Assembly: GCF_003860405.1 (NCBI RefSeq)
Contig: NZ_CP034170.1
Span: 1,426,001-1,490,000 of the forward strand
Length of the DNA: 64,000 bases
Direction: 5' to 3'
Origin: Nakamurella antarctica
Lineage (GTDB): Bacteria; Actinomycetota; Actinomycetes; Mycobacteriales; Nakamurellaceae
The stretch's first letter is position 1, and each line of letters begins with the position of its first letter. The notes beneath the pieces are model-generated. The model was given only the letters and a program-made list of their open reading frames with translations, was not told the origin of the DNA and ran no database searches. Below, in pieces: positions 33,301 through 42,195 of the stretch. Position numbers and translations under genes: made by a program.

Positions 33301-34539
33301 CTAGACGCAGCCGCGGGCGAAGCCGTCCACAAATCCGATCACTTCTGCGGAGCTTGCCGAGTCGCTCAGACGCATCAGGTCCAAGGCCTCGTCGACGTCG
33401 GTCGGCCAAGATCCCAAAGTTCCGGGCACCGCGCTGCCATAAATAGCCGCAACCCACCGTCCCACTGCGCATCCGGCTGCGGCGGCGTCTCGAGGAAACC
33501 GCAGCGCGGAAGCTGCCCGCACCGTGGCGGTAGCGAGACCGAACTGGCCGAGATCGGCAGCTGCCTTCCGGTCGGCGACGCTAGGGGCAACCGTGGACCA
33601 CTGCGCGCTCGTGAGAGCAAAAAGTCCGCTCTGCTCTGCGCTTGTCCGCGCGGCCTGGACCACGGAGGCATCATCACCAAATCGTGGCGAAGTCTTGAGC
33701 GCTGACTTCATTTTGCCGAGTGCGACCACTAGCCCTCGGTTGGCGATTTCTACGCAGTCGACGGGAGTGCCGCGATAACCCAATATCACGGCCTGCGCGC
33801 GGTCGATACCAAGGCCGTGTGCGCCGGCGGTAGCGGGGGAGAAGTCGGGTTGATCGCGAAAGTCTAGTAACGGAGCCAGTTCGGAGAGGAAGGCAGCGCC
33901 GGAACCTGCGAGATCAGCCCCCTCCGGCGATGCCTCCCAGGCGAGGAAATTGCCAGCAAAACAGTCTGCTTGGGCCTCTACATTGATGGCCGCTCCGGTC
34001 GCCACCTTCGCCCGGGCTGCCACCGCGTGGCCGAACTCGTGCGCAAAACTGGAAATGACGCCTGCGCGCCCGTAGTGCGTTGTGAGAACGGGTACCAACA
34101 CAGCGGTGTCATAGACGATCCCGTCAGTACCCGGACAGTAGTAGGCATTGCCGGCAATTTGCGCGGCGGTGATGATGCACAGAGCCCCAGTTTCAGGGCC
34201 ATTCGAATCCGCGATTTGAGAATCCAACGGATGTATACCGCCCGCCAGGGGCGTGAATTGTCGACCAAAAGCGTCTGGAAAGACCAAAGTCCAATACCGA
34301 ACCAGCTCCGCGAGGACTTCCGACGGCAGTGCGGTGTCCGGTCCAGGGTTTTTATCAGGGGATCCCGCCACGCGACTCACCGTCGGCGGGAGGGTTGCGT
34401 CCAGCAGCGCCGCAGAAGTCTCTGAGGTCGCCGAGCTAGGTTCGCGCTGCCGATACTGAGTGCAGGCAAACAACAACGACGCCACCGCGACCAAGGCCGT
34501 CATTCGGCTCAAGGTTCTGCGGTGGCGCCGTTGGTTCAC
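33301..34539 (-). CDS. Neutral zinc metallopeptidase lipoprotein
   Basis: 412-residue predicted lipoprotein: signal peptide MTALVAVASLLFAC with lipobox Cys, then a zinc-peptidase domain of the YpfJ type. HEFGH in SSFAHEFGHAVAA gives two zinc His and the catalytic Glu; the third ligand Glu is in NVEAQADCFAGNFLAWE, the pattern of that family. Biological substrate unknown. It is transcribed with, and 37 bases downstream of, glgB, but the functions do not obviously connect. Confidence 0.85.
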   Translation of the reverse strand: MNQRRHRRTLSRMTALVAVASLLFACTQYRQREPSSATSETSAALLDATLPPTVSRVAGSPDKNPGPDTALPSEVLAELVRYWTLVFPDAFGRQFTPLAGGIHPLDSQIADSNGPETGALCIITAAQIAGNAYYCPGTDGIVYDTAVLVPVLTTHYGRAGVISSFAHEFGHAVAARAKVATGAAINVEAQADCFAGNFLAWEASPEGADLAGSGAAFLSELAPLLDFRDQPDFSPATAGAHGLGIDRAQAVILGYRGTPVDCVEIANRGLVVALGKMKSALKTSPRFGDDASVVQAARTSAEQSGLFALTSAQWSTVAPSVADRKAAADLGQFGLATATVRAASALRFPRDAAAAGCAVGRWVAAIYGSAVPGTLGSWPTDVDEALDLMRLSDSASSAEVIGFVDGFARGCV

Positions 34540-34576: not shown

Positions 34577-36900
34577 CTAGTCGGTGAGTACCAACCACAG
34601 CGCGCCGAGCGGTGGCAGGGTCAGCACAGCTGAGGCTGGCTGTCCATGGAATGCTTCTTCGCTCGCAAGGATCTCGCCGTTGCCGACGCCAGAGCCGCCG
34701 TACACGTGGTTATCGGTATTGATGGCTTCGCGCCACGTTCCGGCAAATGGCATGCCCACCCGGTAGTTGTGGTGCACGTCGGCTGAGAAGTTCAGGACGC
34801 ACACCAGCGCGGACCCGTCGGATCCCCACCGAAGGTAGGACAACACGTTGCCGCCGCGATCATTGGCATCGATCCAGTTGAAGCCGGATGGTGTGAAGTC
34901 CTGGGTGTAGAGCGCAGGGAAGGCCCGATAAGTCCGGTTCAAGTCCCCGACCATCTGCCGAATACCGGCGTGCAGAGGCTGATCGAGCAGGTGCCAGGGC
35001 AGGGATTGCGCCTCGGTCCATTCCGTCGGCGAACCCAGTTCTTGACCCATGAACAACAGTTGTTTGCCCGGGTGAGCCCACATGTGCGCGTAGTAGGCGC
35101 GGAGGGTGGCGGCCTTACGCCAGTCGTCTCCGACAATCTTTCCCCACAATGAGCCCTTGCCGTGCACGACCTCATCATGGGAAATCGGCAACACGAACTG
35201 CTCGGAGAAGGCGTACATCAACGAGAACGTCATCTCGTTGTGGTGCCAGGACCGGTGCACCGGTTCCCGCGCCAGGTAGGACAGCGTGTCGTGCATCCAG
35301 CCCATGTTCCATTTCAGGTGGAAGCCCAACCCGCCCAGATGGGTCGGCCGAGTGACGCCCGGCCACGCGGTGGATTCCTCGGCGATCATCAGCGCGCCGG
35401 GTACTCGCTTGTCGACGGTCGCATTGACCTCCTGCAGGAACGACACGGCCTGCAGGTTTTCATTTCCGCCGTGTTCGTTAGGCAGCCACTGCCCATCTTC
35501 GCGCGAATAATCCAGGTACAACATCGACGCGACAGCATCGACCCGCAGGCCGTCGATATGGAACTCTTCGAGCCAGTACAGGGCATTGGCGACCAAAAAG
35601 TTGCGCACCTCGCGGCGCCCGAAGTCGAAAACGTAGGTGCCCCAGTCGGGTTGCTCTCCACGGCGGGGGTCGGCGTGCTCGTACAGTGCGGTTCCATCAA
35701 AGCGAGCCAGGGCGAATGCGTCCTTGGGGAAATGTGCGGGGACCCAGTCGAGAATGACGCCGTACCCGGCTTGATGAAGCCGGTCTACCAAGTAGCGGAA
35801 ATCGTCCGGAGATCCGAAGCGAGAATCGGATGCATAGTACGACGTGACTTGGTACCCCCATGACGGGGCGAACGGATGGCCAGCCAACGGCAGGAACTCC
35901 ACGTGGGTGAAGGCCGTCACGTCCAGGTCGGCGATCAGCGCGTCAGCCATTTCGCGATAGGACAGCCCCATCTTCCACGAACCCGCGTGGACTTCGTAGA
36001 TAGAGATGGGTGAGTGCAGCAGATCGGCTTTCGCGCGCTCGTCGATCCAGGTGGCGTCATCCCAGGCGTACTCGCTGCTGAACACCACCGAAGCGGTGTG
36101 CGGCGGGATCTCGGAATAGAACGCCAGCGGGTCGGCCTTGTCTCGCCAGACGCGGTCTGCACCCAGTATTTGGAACTTGTAGCGGGTTCCTGGATGGACA
36201 TCGGGCAGGAAGATTTCCCAGACGCCCGTGGACCCAAGCGAGCGCATCGGCTGGCCCGATCCGGTCCAATGGTCAAAATCGCCGGAAACGCGCACGCCCG
36301 CAGCGTTGGGAGCCCAGACTGCGAAGGAGGTGCCGGTGACAGAACCGCCAGGCGTGTCGTAGGTGCGCACGTGGGCCCCGAGGACATCCCAGAGACGCTC
36401 ATGACGGCCTTCGCCGATCAGGTACAGGTCGACTTCGCCCAAGGTGGGAAGCCAGCGATAAGGGTCGTCCACCACGAGCGGTTCGTTTTCCCCGTACGTC
36501 ACCCTGATCCGATAGTCGCCCACAGGCCCCGGAACGGTGACAGCCCAAATGCCGCCGTACGCGTGCTCGAAGCTCAGCTCTTGGCCGTCGTACAGCAGCT
36601 CAACGTTGGCGGCGTGATGCCGCAGGGTGCGGACGATCGTGCTGCCGTCGGTTTGCGGGTGCGCACCGAGAATGCCGTGGGGGTTGTGAGTTTCACCGCC
36701 AATCAGCTTCTCGTAGTCGTCGGTGCTGGGCCCCGCCGGAGCGGCAGGTGCGGCAACGTAGGTGCCGCTCGGTGCCGCCGCAGCCGTGGTGGTAACTTCG
36801 GCGCTCGCCGGGATATCCGCTGGGGGGCGACGGCAGCCGCAGCGGCTGCCGCGGCTGCGGTGGGACTAGCGGGATGGCGATCGTTGTTTTCGAGACTCAT
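34577..36900 (-). CDS. glgB: 1,4-alpha-glucan branching enzyme GlgB with apparent frameshift
   Basis: Introduces alpha-1,6 branches into glucan made by GlgE. The intact part (GTG 36523 to 34577, 648 residues) has the CBM48 domain and GH13 catalytic domain with [13 protein letters not shown] (Asp) and [13 protein letters not shown] (Glu). The same frame runs upstream without a start codon through a clear N1 domain ([20 protein letters not shown]). The true start is the ATG at 36900, overlapping the mak stop by ATGA and preceded by GGAGG; it encodes [18 protein letters not shown] in another frame. Adding one base to the six-base G run at 36822-36827 (C run on the coding strand) joins both parts into about 774 residues, the expected length. 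Either a sequencing error or a frameshift mutation. Confidence 0.85.
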
Positions 36901-38324
36901 GCATTTCCTCCGGCTTTAATCAATGTCGCGATGGCATGCAGCGGGATCGGTTCCCAGCTAGGCCGGTTGCCGTGTTCGTATGCCACTTCGTAGACCGCTT
37001 TATCCAGCTCATAGGCCCGAATAAGTGCCTTCTCGTGCAGGCTGGCCAATTGTTCTTCTCCCGCGACAGCTTCGTAGCCGGCGAGGAAAGCGTGCCGATT
37101 GCGGGTTGCCCATTCACCGGCGCGGTAGGTCTGCTGCGCATCGCTGGCACCGCCCGGCAGCAGGTGATGGGCCGCGTAATCTAACGACCGCAGCATGCCC
37201 GCGAGGTCTTTTGCCAGCAAGTGCTTGGCGCGGCGTTCGACCATGGGTTTGGCAGGTTCGCCTTCGAAATCGATGATGACCCAGCCGGTCAGGGTGCGCA
37301 GCGTTTGCCCGAGATGCAGATCGCCGTGAATACGCTGACGGGTGGCTGCGCTGCCGACGTGCCTGGCGGCCTCGAATGTAGCGATGATGCCGTCCAGATG
37401 TTCGGCGACGGAGGAAACGTAGGCAGCTACCGCCCGTGCCTCTGAAATCATGGCGTCCAGCGTCGTTTGCCATTGGCTGGCGTCTACATGGTCGGTGCCG
37501 AAAGCGGCTGCGAGGTCGGTGTGGACGTGTGCGACGGCTTCCCCGAGCCGATGAGCCTCAGCGGCGAAATCGCCACCTACCTCGTCGGCCCGCAGGTCAC
37601 CTTCGGCGAGGAGGTCCCGCACGCTGGCGCAGGCCATCGCCCAGCCGTCCGCGCTGTTGGCAAAAAAGCTGGCCATGAAGCCCAGCGTCGTCGGCACACC
37701 AGCAACGTCGGCCTCCAGGACGCCCTGCGGCGCCGCAACGTGTTTGCTACCAGCAACTTTCAAAGCCCGGTGGATCTCGACGTCGGGATTTTGGCCCGGC
37801 TCGATTCGCCGGAAGACCTTCAGGATTGAGGTGTCTCCAAAGATGATGGAGGTATTTGACTGCTCGCCGCTGATGACTAGACCGGGCGCAGTAGCGTCGA
37901 ACTCCGAATCCACTTCAGCAGCCAGAGTAATGGGACCCCACGTGCGCGAGGCATGAATTCTACTGAGCAGCTGTGAGCTGACCGCTGCGTCATGGAGCGC
38001 GTCGTACACCGTCTCGTTGCCGATGGAGCCAATGACGGAGTGCTGCAACCGATCGGAGACAGTGTGGCGCCAACCGAGGAAGAGCTGGTACATCTGCTCG
38101 CCAACGTTGGTATAAACACGCAGGATCAGGTGCTCGACCCGCATCATGTCAGCGGCGTCACCCGCGTCCCATTCCGGAGTATCGAGCGCGGCACGAGCTT
38201 CGATCGAGATCGGGCCCAGTTGGCCGCCTTTCCCGGCGAACCAGCGTTGGTGCGGTAGCCAGCTGCTGATCAGATCTAGTAAAGCCGGGTCGTCGAGCGG
38301 AAGCCGTGAAGTAGTTTCTGTCAT
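36897..38324 (-). CDS. mak: Maltokinase
   Basis: Phosphorylates maltose to maltose-1-phosphate, the donor for GlgE; 475 residues. N-terminal cap LISSWLPHQRWFAGKGG and the aminoglycoside-kinase-like catalytic part: RIHGDLHLGQTLRTLTGWVI (catalytic Asp) and IDFEGEPAKPMVERR (DFE metal motif). Start ATG with AAGGAG upstream, nine bases after treS; the stop overlaps glgB. TreS and Mak form a complex in mycobacteria, in line with the tight spacing. Confidence 0.94.
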   Translation of the reverse strand: MTETTSRLPLDDPALLDLISSWLPHQRWFAGKGGQLGPISIEARAALDTPEWDAGDAADMMRVEHLILRVYTNVGEQMYQLFLGWRHTVSDRLQHSVIGSIGNETVYDALHDAAVSSQLLSRIHASRTWGPITLAAEVDSEFDATAPGLVISGEQSNTSIIFGDTSILKVFRRIEPGQNPDVEIHRALKVAGSKHVAAPQGVLEADVAGVPTTLGFMASFFANSADGWAMACASVRDLLAEGDLRADEVGGDFAAEAHRLGEAVAHVHTDLAAAFGTDHVDASQWQTTLDAMISEARAVAAYVSSVAEHLDGIIATFEAARHVGSAATRQRIHGDLHLGQTLRTLTGWVIIDFEGEPAKPMVERRAKHLLAKDLAGMLRSLDYAAHHLLPGGASDAQQTYRAGEWATRNRHAFLAGYEAVAGEEQLASLHEKALIRAYELDKAVYEVAYEHGNRPSWEPIPLHAIATLIKAGGNA

Positions 38325-38333
38325 TATTTCTCC

Positions 38334-40133
38334 TTACCCTTCTTCGGGCGTGAGCACCGGGGTGAGCTCGAACCAGTAAAAGCCGTGGCCCGGCAGTGTG
38401 AGCAGATAGGGAAGCTCGCCGACGGGTGGGAACGCGGTCCCGCCTGTGAGCTCGGTGGGGATTGCACCCTCAAACTTTCGTAAATCCAGCTCGACCGGCT
38501 GTGGGAATCGCGACAGGTTGTTGACGCACAACACCGACTTCGTCGAGCCTCGCGCCCCCTCGACCGCCTCGTCGGCAACCACCAGCACGTACGACAGCAC
38601 AGTGGGATTGGAGCCGCCCAAGTCGGTGAAGGTGCCCGCGGAGAAAGCCGCGTGGCGCTTGCGGATTTCGATCATGCGGCGGACGAAATGCAACAGCGAG
38701 GCCGACGAGTTCATCTGCGCCTCAACGTTTACCGCTTGGAATCCGTAGATCGGGTCCATGATGGACGGCAGATTTAGCCTGGCTGGATCGGACCGGGAGA
38801 AACCGCCGTTGCGGTCGGGCGACCACTGCATGGGGGTGCGGACGCCATCGCGGTCGCCAAGCCAGATGTTGTCGCCCATACCGATTTCATCGCCGTAATA
38901 CAGACACGGCGAGCCCGGAAGGGAGAGCAGCAAAGCGGTGAATAACTCTTGCTGGTTGCGATCGTTGTCCAGCAACGTCGCCAGACGTCGCCGGATGCCG
39001 ATGTTGGCCTTCATCCGAGGGTCTTTGGCGTATTCGGCCCACATGTAGTCGCGGTCCTCGTCGCTGACCATTTCGAGAGTGAGCTCGTCGTGGTTGCGCA
39101 GGAAGATGCCCCACTGAGATGACGAAGGAATGGCTGGCGTCTGCGCAAGGATTTCCGAGATGGGGAATCGGGACTCCCGGCGAGCCGCCATAAAAATTCG
39201 TGGCATCAGCGGGAAGTGGAAGCACATGTGGCACTCGTCGCCGCCTGCGGCGGGGTCGCCGAAGTAGTCCACCACGTCGGCGGGCCATTGGTTAGCCTCG
39301 GCGAGCAGCACGGCGTCCGGGTATTCGGCTTCGATGACCGCGCGACACCGCTTGAGATAGGCGTGGGTTTCCGGCAGGTTCTCGCCGTTGGTGCCCTCGC
39401 GCACGTAGAGGTACGGAACCGCATCCAACCGGAAGCCGTCGATTCCGAGGTCTAGCCAGAATCGCATAATGTCGATCAGGGCGTCGCCCACCGCGGGGTT
39501 TTCGAAGTTGAGGTCGGGCTGGTGGGAGAAAAACCGATGCCAGAAATATTGCTTGCGGATGGGGTCGAAGGTCCAGTTGGACGGCTCGGTATCGACAAAG
39601 ATAATGCGCGCGTCCGGGTACAGGGTGTCGTCATCCGACCAGACGTAATAGTCGCCGTAAGGGCCGGTGGGATCGCTGCGCGACTCCTGGAACCACTGGT
39701 GCGAGTCGGAGGTGTGGTTCATGACGAGATCGGTCACCACCCGCATGCCGCGGGCGTGCGCAGCATCGAGCAGGGCTACGAAATCCTCGACCGTGCCGAA
39801 CTCGGGCAGCACCTTGCGGTAGTCGCGAATGTCGTAGCCACCATCGCGCAGCGGAGAGTCGTAGAACGGCGGGAGCCACAGGCAATCGACACCGAGCCAC
39901 GCCAAGTAGTCCAACTTCTCAATCAGGCCCCGAAGGTCTCCTGAGCCATCGCCGTTCGAGTCGTAGAAACTTCGCACGAGCACTTCGTAGAACACCGCCC
40001 GCTTGTACCAACCGGGATCAGCCGGTAAGGCCCGCGCGGAAGGGAAGTCGGAGGACGCCGGCTCGTCGATCACGTGGTCGTCGTGGCCGTCGTGCTGCTG
40101 ATGAGCGATTTCGCTGGAAGTCATGTGCACCAT
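38334..40133 (-). CDS. treS: Trehalose synthase (maltose alpha-D-glucosyltransferase)
   Basis: GH13 enzyme interconverting trehalose and maltose; 599 residues. Signatures: [21 protein letters not shown] (in part), [30 protein letters not shown] (nucleophile Asp), [18 protein letters not shown] (acid/base Glu) and [14 protein letters not shown]-terminal 35 residues are His/Asp-rich ([11 protein letters not shown]). Start at ATG 40133 or ATG 40124. Second gene of glgE-treS-mak-glgB; supplies maltose to Mak from trehalose. Confidence 0.94.
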
Positions 40134-40197: not shown

Positions 40198-42195
40198 CTA
40201 GCGCGACTTCACCGTGAGAATGTGCGCGACCCGTTGCTCCGGGTCTAACCCCACGTCGTTGAACTGGCCCCAGTGATACTGCTCGCCCGATATTTCATCA
40301 ACGACGTCAAACTCGGCGCCCCATTCCAGACCGAGCGCCGGCAAGTACAGGTCGGTGGTTCCCCAGTACATGCCTTGCGCGGCGAGTGCGACCACCACGA
40401 TGACGGTGTCGCCGCTGCGCTCGTCCCGTTTGGAGAAACACAGCAGCTGCTCGTTATTGATGCCGTGGAACCAGAGGCCCTTGAGCTTTTGCAGTGCGGG
40501 ATGGTCGCGGCGAATGTGGTTGAGCTGGGTGATGAAAGGTTCCAAGGAGTCACCTCGCTGCAGCGCCCCGGCGTGATCCCGCGGCCGGAGTTCGAACTTC
40601 TCGGAGTTCAGATACTCCTCTTTGCCTTCCGCCAGCACTTCGCTTTCGTACAACTCGAAACCTGAATACACGCCCCACGTGCTGGCTAGCATGCTGGCCA
40701 GCACGGCGCGGATTGCGAACATTGCTCTGGACTGCGTCTGCAAATGGAACGGCAGGATATCTGGCGTGTTAACGAAAAAATTGGGCCGCATGTAGTCCGA
40801 TGCCAGGACCAATTCGACTCCGTAGTCGATGATGTCGGCCTTGGCGGTCCGCCACGTGAAGTATGTGTAGGACTGCGTGAAACCGACCCGACCCAGCTCG
40901 TGCATCATCGGCGCTCGGGTGAAGGCCTCGGCGAGGAAGATTACCTCCGGATGCGTGATGTGCACCTGATTGATTAACCACTCCCAGAAGTTAATGGGCT
41001 TGGTGTGTGGGTTGTCCACACGGAACACCGTGATCCCGCGGTCGATCCAGAATCTGATCACCCGCAGAATTTCTGCGTACAACGTCGCCGGAGCGTTATC
41101 GAAGTTAATGGGATAAATGTCTTGATACTTTTTCGGCGGATTCTCTGCATACGCAATTGATCCGTCGGCGAGCGTGGTGAACCACTCGGGATTCGACGTT
41201 ACCCAAGGGTGGTCGGGAGCGCATTGCAGCGCAAAGTCCAACGCGATCTCGATGTTTTGCTCCTTCGCCGCAGCGACGAATGCGTCAAAGTCAGCCAGCG
41301 TCCCCAGATCCGGGTTAATCGCATCATGGCCGCCCTCATCCGATCCGATGGCCCACGGGGAGCCGACATCGTGTTGCCCGCTCTCCACCGTATTGTTCTT
41401 ACCCTTGCGGTTCAGCTTCCCGATGGGATGGATCGGGGGTAGGTACAAGACGTCGAAGCCCATGCGGGCGACCCTCGGCAATTCTGCCGTCGCATCCGCG
41501 AACGTCCCGTGGCGCAGCACTTCACCATTCGGCCCGACCTCAGCGCTCAGGGAGCGGGGGAATAATTCGTACCAAGAGCCAAATTCTGCGAGCGGGCGGT
41601 CCACCCAAATCCGGATCGGGGCGGCTTTGGTAGTCAGCTCTCGAATGGGGTCGGCGGCGAGCACGGACCACAGCTCCTGCGCCACAGCAGGCCCGATACG
41701 CTCTGCGACAGAACGGCTTTCGTCGCGAAGGGCAGCGATAGCCGTGCGAATAGCGGTGGCGTACTTTTGCTGCGGCCGCCGAGAAATCCGGTCCAACAAT
41801 TCGATGCCAGTGGCCAGATCATTGGCCATTTCCGCGCCGGACTGGCCGGCGGCAGCCTTGATTTCCACGGCATGTTTCCACGTTTCAAGTGGATCCGACC
41901 ACGCCTCGACTGTTGCTGTCCAGATGCCCTGCCTGTCAGGGACTACGTGGGCGACATAGCGGTCGACGCCCGGCGCCGGCTGCATGCGTAAGAGGGGGGC
42001 CACCGTGCGGGTGCGCACCTTGACTCCACCTGCGACTTCCGGCCCACGCCACACCACATTTGCGGCTACCGCATCGTGGCCCTCTCGGAAAACCGTCGCA
42101 CTGATGAGGATGGTTTCGCCGATCACCGCCTTCGAAGGATAGGAGCCGCAAGCGACTAAGGGGGCAAGGTCTGAGATACCGATTCTTCCAGCCAC
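40198..42195 (-). CDS. glgE: Alpha-1,4-glucan:maltose-1-phosphate maltosyltransferase
   Basis: GH13_3 enzyme that extends alpha-glucan with maltosyl units from maltose-1-phosphate; 665 residues. N-terminal beta-sandwich domain (VVWRGPEVAGGVKVRTR), then the helical domain, then the barrel with FDVLYLPPIHPIGKLNRKGK, FRVDNPHTKPINFWEWLI (nucleophile Asp) and EVIFLAEAFTRAPMM (Glu). All are characteristic of GlgE. First gene of the minus-strand operon and divergent from glgP. Confidence 0.95.
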   Translation of the reverse strand: MAGRIGISDLAPLVACGSYPSKAVIGETILISATVFREGHDAVAANVVWRGPEVAGGVKVRTRTVAPLLRMQPAPGVDRYVAHVVPDRQGIWTATVEAWSDPLETWKHAVEIKAAAGQSGAEMANDLATGIELLDRISRRPQQKYATAIRTAIAALRDESRSVAERIGPAVAQELWSVLAADPIRELTTKAAPIRIWVDRPLAEFGSWYELFPRSLSAEVGPNGEVLRHGTFADATAELPRVARMGFDVLYLPPIHPIGKLNRKGKNNTVESGQHDVGSPWAIGSDEGGHDAINPDLGTLADFDAFVAAAKEQNIEIALDFALQCAPDHPWVTSNPEWFTTLADGSIAYAENPPKKYQDIYPINFDNAPATLYAEILRVIRFWIDRGITVFRVDNPHTKPINFWEWLINQVHITHPEVIFLAEAFTRAPMMHELGRVGFTQSYTYFTWRTAKADIIDYGVELVLASDYMRPNFFVNTPDILPFHLQTQSRAMFAIRAVLASMLASTWGVYSGFELYESEVLAEGKEEYLNSEKFELRPRDHAGALQRGDSLEPFITQLNHIRRDHPALQKLKGLWFHGINNEQLLCFSKRDERSGDTVIVVVALAAQGMYWGTTDLYLPALGLEWGAEFDVVDEISGEQYHWGQFNDVGLDPEQRVAHILTVKSR

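Follow-up and report, generated by a model that had tools for sequence, protein, structure and literature searches.

A frame break at a cytosine run in the linker of Nakamurella antarctica glgB, probably reflecting one base missing from the assembly

The glgB gene of the soil bacterium Nakamurella antarctica is predicted to encode an ordinary Type-1 1,4-alpha-glucan branching enzyme with its N1 domain present, and the moderately favoured reading (probability of approximately 0.6) is that one base of a C6 run near its 5' end was lost through a consensus error in the assembly rather than through a mutation of the strain. The frame break was first described in an earlier note on this DNA, whose observation is correct and whose interpretation, as far as sequence comparison can tell, is also right. 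The window analysed comprises 64,000 nucleotides (positions 1,426,001 to 1,490,000 of NZ_CP034170.1) on a single contig of 3,377,955 bases, and has a G+C content of ~0.61. The gene forms the last member of a glgE-treS-mak-glgB cluster on the minus strand, which includes the maltosyltransferase gene glgE (40198..42195; ORF list and Pfam), treS, coding for a trehalose synthase/maltose glucosyltransferase (38334..40133; ORF list and NCBIfam), and the maltokinase gene mak (36897..38324; ORF list and profile matches). A lipoprotein-like ORF is also found in the window (33301-34539, minus strand), with no Pfam match at E 0.001 and a HEFGH sequence that is presumably a metallopeptidase-type motif.

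The GlgB frame on the minus strand is open from 36865 to 34577 (762 amino acids, stop to stop) and spans the end of a linker, the N1, CBM48 (N2), catalytic and C-terminal domains, with no usable start at its head. Its first ATG, GTG or TTG codon is the GTG at 36523, within N1, from which a shortened form of 648 amino acids is read (34577..36523). Ahead of it stand 114 codons, none of them a stop and none a start, where the earlier note had described about 110 start-less codons of good N1 domain; the lack of a start holds, but only 67 of these codons belong to N1, with ~14 located upstream of the frame switch and ~33 in the variable linker, and N1 itself extends beyond the GTG. An ATG at 36900-36898 overlaps the mak stop codon (TGA, 36899-36897) and is preceded at 6 nt by GGAGG, a strong Shine-Dalgarno site, the anti-Shine-Dalgarno pairing amounting to -9.5 kcal/mol as compared to the weaker -5.0 kcal/mol at the GTG. 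This ATG reads into another frame, as had been claimed; its coding piece (36823..36900) runs through an Ala tract to the C6 run, and the frame closes at a TGA (36705-36703). The latter forms part of a CTGA (36703..36706) just past the start of N1 homology, where the stop overlaps a CTG and an ATT of the GlgB frame (36706/36703; pairing -3.0 kcal/mol), which could possibly act as a weak re-initiation site. Fusion of both pieces would give 774 amino acids, 126 more than the 648-residue form. With one base too few in the run, software would thus miss about the first 126 of 774 residues, in line with the truncated 648-residue GlgB and the loss of around 125 residues expected earlier from automated calling, for which a mechanical ORF list rather than the deposited annotation served as the test. 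A second ATG, at 36904, sits in the GlgB frame and meets a TAG after 12 codons. It was rejected as a start, being too near the Shine-Dalgarno site (2 nt from GGAGG), and a nonsense mutation in its frame was likewise rejected on a score of -11.7, against +10.3 for the 36900 frame, on the linkers of the relatives.

The run at which the frame switches (36822..36827; G6 on the plus and C6 on the minus strand) holds exactly six Gs in the assembled sequence, and both the 5' piece and the start of the open frame have linker-like composition. Using a linker amino-acid model built from the sixteen relatives only, with -1 junctions scored from 5 to 65 codons into the 36900 frame, 0.955 of the switch weight falls where the last base of the 5' frame is 36829 to 36820, that is, on the C6 run and its edges. 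The codon-usage model gives a weaker placement (0.77 of the weight at the run, 0.20 further downstream), while the gene-finding models that report the break place it at 36820/36821. The best -1 junction score was 21.4, which none of 2000 dinucleotide shuffles reached (mean -13.9; sd 9.0; maximum 10.3). Comparison with the relatives shows that the 5' piece and the GlgB frame belong to one reading frame, in agreement with the earlier proposal that one extra base in this run would fuse them. Runs of at least six G or C, with one flanking base, make up 0.16 % of an 864-kb sample, so chance is an unlikely cause of a break at such a place, which implies slippage by an enzyme or in sequencing. The Ala tract holds a strong hairpin with an 11-bp GC-rich stem (36833..36858, minus strand), located 5 nt upstream of the C6 run (z -2.7; 2/200 shuffles fold as well).

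A search of the genus took in seventeen genomes, including that of N. antarctica, and GlgB was found in all of them. The frame break is absent from the sixteen others (0/16), where glgB is one unbroken frame with a start codon, read from the sequence, at the end of mak. The two genes share a four-base overlap in thirteen, while the glgB start lies 25 nt after the mak stop in two and 7 nt before the last base of mak in one. Relatives starting at the internal GTG had been named in the earlier note as evidence that would count against the break; all sixteen start at the mak end instead. From these starts the proteins are 753-1023 amino acids long, with a mostly Pro/Ala-rich and very variable stretch of 28-302 amino acids before the N1 anchor. 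The ratio of identity in N1 (residues 46-114) to identity in the rest of the protein is 0.842, against 0.840 over the genus pairs (0.77-0.91 for single genomes), which argues that constraint on N1 is not relaxed and that there has been no old decay. Since N1 is conserved as in the relatives and the 114 start-less codons include no stop, the break would be either recent or absent from the cell. One member of the genus carries a second, 55 %-identical GlgB (L152, G008:C189). Separately, mak and glgB are apparently joined in one fused frame in 16 of 80 named loci (L048, L052, L059, L061, L064, L068, L071, L074, L075, L080, L085, L086, L090, L091, L095 and L099), the mak frame stopping just beyond the glgB match, and the NCBIfam model NF011293 matches both the mak and the glgB parts.

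Profile comparisons place the N1 domain (Pfam GlgB_N, PF22019) at 36458..36724 on the minus strand, corresponding to residues 48-136 of the open frame (P0001), with 81.2 bits (cut-off 27; 6e-23). On the 648-residue form the same profile reaches 26.1 bits, under the cut-off of 27, with the alignment shifted further along. CBM48, alpha-amylase and alpha-amylase C domains are each matched above the gathering score in the open frame, which also exceeds the cut-offs of the NCBIfam models TIGR01515 (887.8 bits; cut-off 463.95) and NF003811 (962.9 bits; cut-off 741). The shortened form retains the CBM48, catalytic and C-terminal domains and likewise exceeds the NCBIfam cut-offs.

Frame breaks were also sought elsewhere in the assembly. 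A strand-by-strand codon Viterbi found glgB at 36820 but was rejected for its many shadow calls; a joint six-frame codon model also found glgB at 36820 and detected 18/150 simulated deletions, while four retuned six-frame settings detected between 27 and 44 of 120, three of the four missing glgB. A Markov model with a gene-boundary filter detected 60-74/150 or 36/100 simulated deletions. Training on 80 kb of a further genome (G004) was unsuccessful (21 predicted breaks) and its counts were dropped. Since much of what was flagged reflects noise or the edges of genes, the count was restricted to those with Pfam support, which were four of 34 flagged in 864 kb of the N. antarctica genome (G000; 36/100 simulated deletions detected) and three of 21 flagged in 480 kb of the control G006 (51/100 detected). 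Corrected for sensitivity, the break rates of the two are alike. The four N. antarctica breaks affect an ABC sugar-binding protein (SBP_bac_1; L124:13241), a GntR regulator (L158:4349) and the transposase of an IS remnant (L130:12273), in each of which one domain crosses the junction, as well as a mannonate dehydratase (UxuA; L130:4285), for which the domain is matched in two stretches; only one match, to AP_endonuc_2, spans this last junction, and at 30.5 bits it falls just below the cut-off of 31.1. All carry the sign of one missing base, as does glgB, as do the three in G006 (a transposase, a penicillin amidase and GmrSD_C), and as does a short-chain dehydrogenase (adh_short; L130 near 5475) spotted by eye outside the flagged list. 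Further apparent breaks that looked genuine by eye, with no Pfam domain across the junction, were left out of the rates (L122:12261, L125:17731, L126:3094, L126:5442, L153:11010, L169:2004 and L172:11618), such reading having been less close for G006 than for N. antarctica. Two of these lie beside G6 runs and are likely breaks, one in a protein with no Pfam match that appears baseplate-like by eye (L122:12261) and the other between the ATPase and TOBE parts of an ABC ATPase (L125:17731). A weak MFS match across L157:1955 fell under the Pfam cut-off and was not counted. G006 is taken as strain PAMC28650, for which passages of PMC9789016 give 5,629,850 bases, PacBio sequencing and HGAP assembly; as a PacBio-only assembly it is not a clean control and may be prone to similar errors.

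Homology-based censuses were also applied. The first gave five splits, all discarded as antisense shadow ORFs, a refined version gave none over 32.6 kb of the window and 5.5 kb elsewhere, and a reciprocal protein comparison gave none in 51 kb of the N. antarctica genome or in 59 kb of the relatives. Such comparisons are blind to the glgB break, since the linker cannot be aligned. Among 71 runs of at least six G or C that touch called coding sequence in 464 kb, 57 hold one frame across ±60 nt. The census establishes that glgB is not the sole break, yet it gives no proof of assembly error.

Single-base indels at G/C homopolymers occur in assemblies, and C runs slip in vivo too. With a consensus error, the start of glgB would be the ATG at 36900, which overlaps the stop codon of mak, and the assembled sequence would have dropped one base of the C6 run within the hypervariable Pro/Ala linker, so that the first codons no longer share a frame with the remainder of the gene. 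This is preferred on prior judgement and because of the homopolymer, the missing-base sign and the unrelaxed constraint on N1; the hairpin close to the run and the breaks of like sign elsewhere in the assembly also speak for it. Against it stand a Pfam-supported break rate no higher than in G006, itself taken as PacBio-only, the absence of splits in the reciprocal comparison, and the 57/71 runs that keep frame. A real and recent deletion is less probable; it would leave the 648-residue GlgB from the GTG at 36523, a near-complete protein through weak re-initiation at the CTG/ATT, or little GlgB. Replication slippage at a C run would leave the same mark, the linker is unconstrained in length, ranging from 28 to 302 amino acids among the relatives, and the shortened form keeps its CBM48, catalytic and C-terminal domains and scores higher than the NCBIfam cut-offs. 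Furthermore, N1-truncated enzymes stay active (passages of PMC6339891) and Mycobacterium smegmatis survives deletion of glgB (passages of PMC4981310). However, N1 is without relaxed constraint, none of the sixteen relatives shares the break, and the GTG lies inside N1 with pairing of -5.0 kcal/mol against -9.5 at the ATG and -3.0 at the CTG/ATT.

The two frames could in principle be joined at the C6 run by programmed -1 ribosomal frameshifting or by transcriptional slippage, which would place GlgB under control from the mak transcript, as the required shift is -1, a CCC codon can slip back by one base and pair again, and the hairpin at 36833..36858 adjoins the run. The sequence nevertheless makes this unlikely: the incoming codons, GCC CCC CAG, do not match the phase of the heptamer C CCC CCA, so that tandem slippage is impossible; the hairpin is upstream of the run, and the 75 nt downstream fold no better than shuffles when modelled with pseudoknots excluded (z -0.46); and the site is broken in 0/16 relatives. 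Even less probable is a real six-base run from which full-length GlgB arises only through an infrequent -1 slip, or which leaves an N1-less form, such that a homopolymer in the disordered linker of the mak-glgB message would set branching activity and glucan chain length. The least probable reading is that the upstream sequence is non-coding and GlgB truly starts internally, for although the 648-residue ORF is what a mechanical call returns, N1 homology to the solved M. tuberculosis GlgB (3k1d) begins at residue 46, GlgB_N matches at 6e-23, both pieces are linker-like and a start codon stands at the mak end in 16/16 relatives.

If the deletion were real, the 648-residue form would be without most of N1. 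Passages of PMC6339891 cite 50 % less activity for an N1-truncated M. tuberculosis enzyme and reductions of 50-60 % elsewhere, and according to PMC4433092 in situ truncation in E. coli caused a shift towards longer chains that was non-linear with length. M. smegmatis tolerates the deletion of glgB, with maltose-1-phosphate not reaching toxic levels, unlike in M. tuberculosis (passages of PMC4981310). Were the missing base instead a consensus error, as preferred here, the corrected gene model would mean that neither an N1-less branching enzyme nor a damaged GlgE pathway should be read from the N. antarctica sequence. Other genes of this assembly also carry one-base breaks, and apparent gene losses would need checking against reads before they are believed.

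The missing base resembles the known homopolymer indels of assemblies in that glgB is likewise one base short in a G/C run, its status as an error being probable here rather than demonstrated. With the GlgB of M. tuberculosis (PDB 3k1d), a Type-1 enzyme of the Actinobacteria, the N. antarctica protein has the N1, CBM48, catalytic and C-terminal domains in common (aligned residues 46-759), and differs in a frame broken ahead of N1 and in a Pro/Ala linker before it. Passages of PMC6339891 describe Type-3 branching enzymes as carrying more than ~100 amino acids before N1, and eight of the sixteen genus relatives likewise have 101-302 amino acids before the N1 anchor, whereas the extension in N. 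antarctica would be ~57 amino acids. The genus extension (L003-L018) is mostly low-complexity and hypervariable with no evident domain, which bears on the 'N0 domain' proposed for Type-3 enzymes in those passages.
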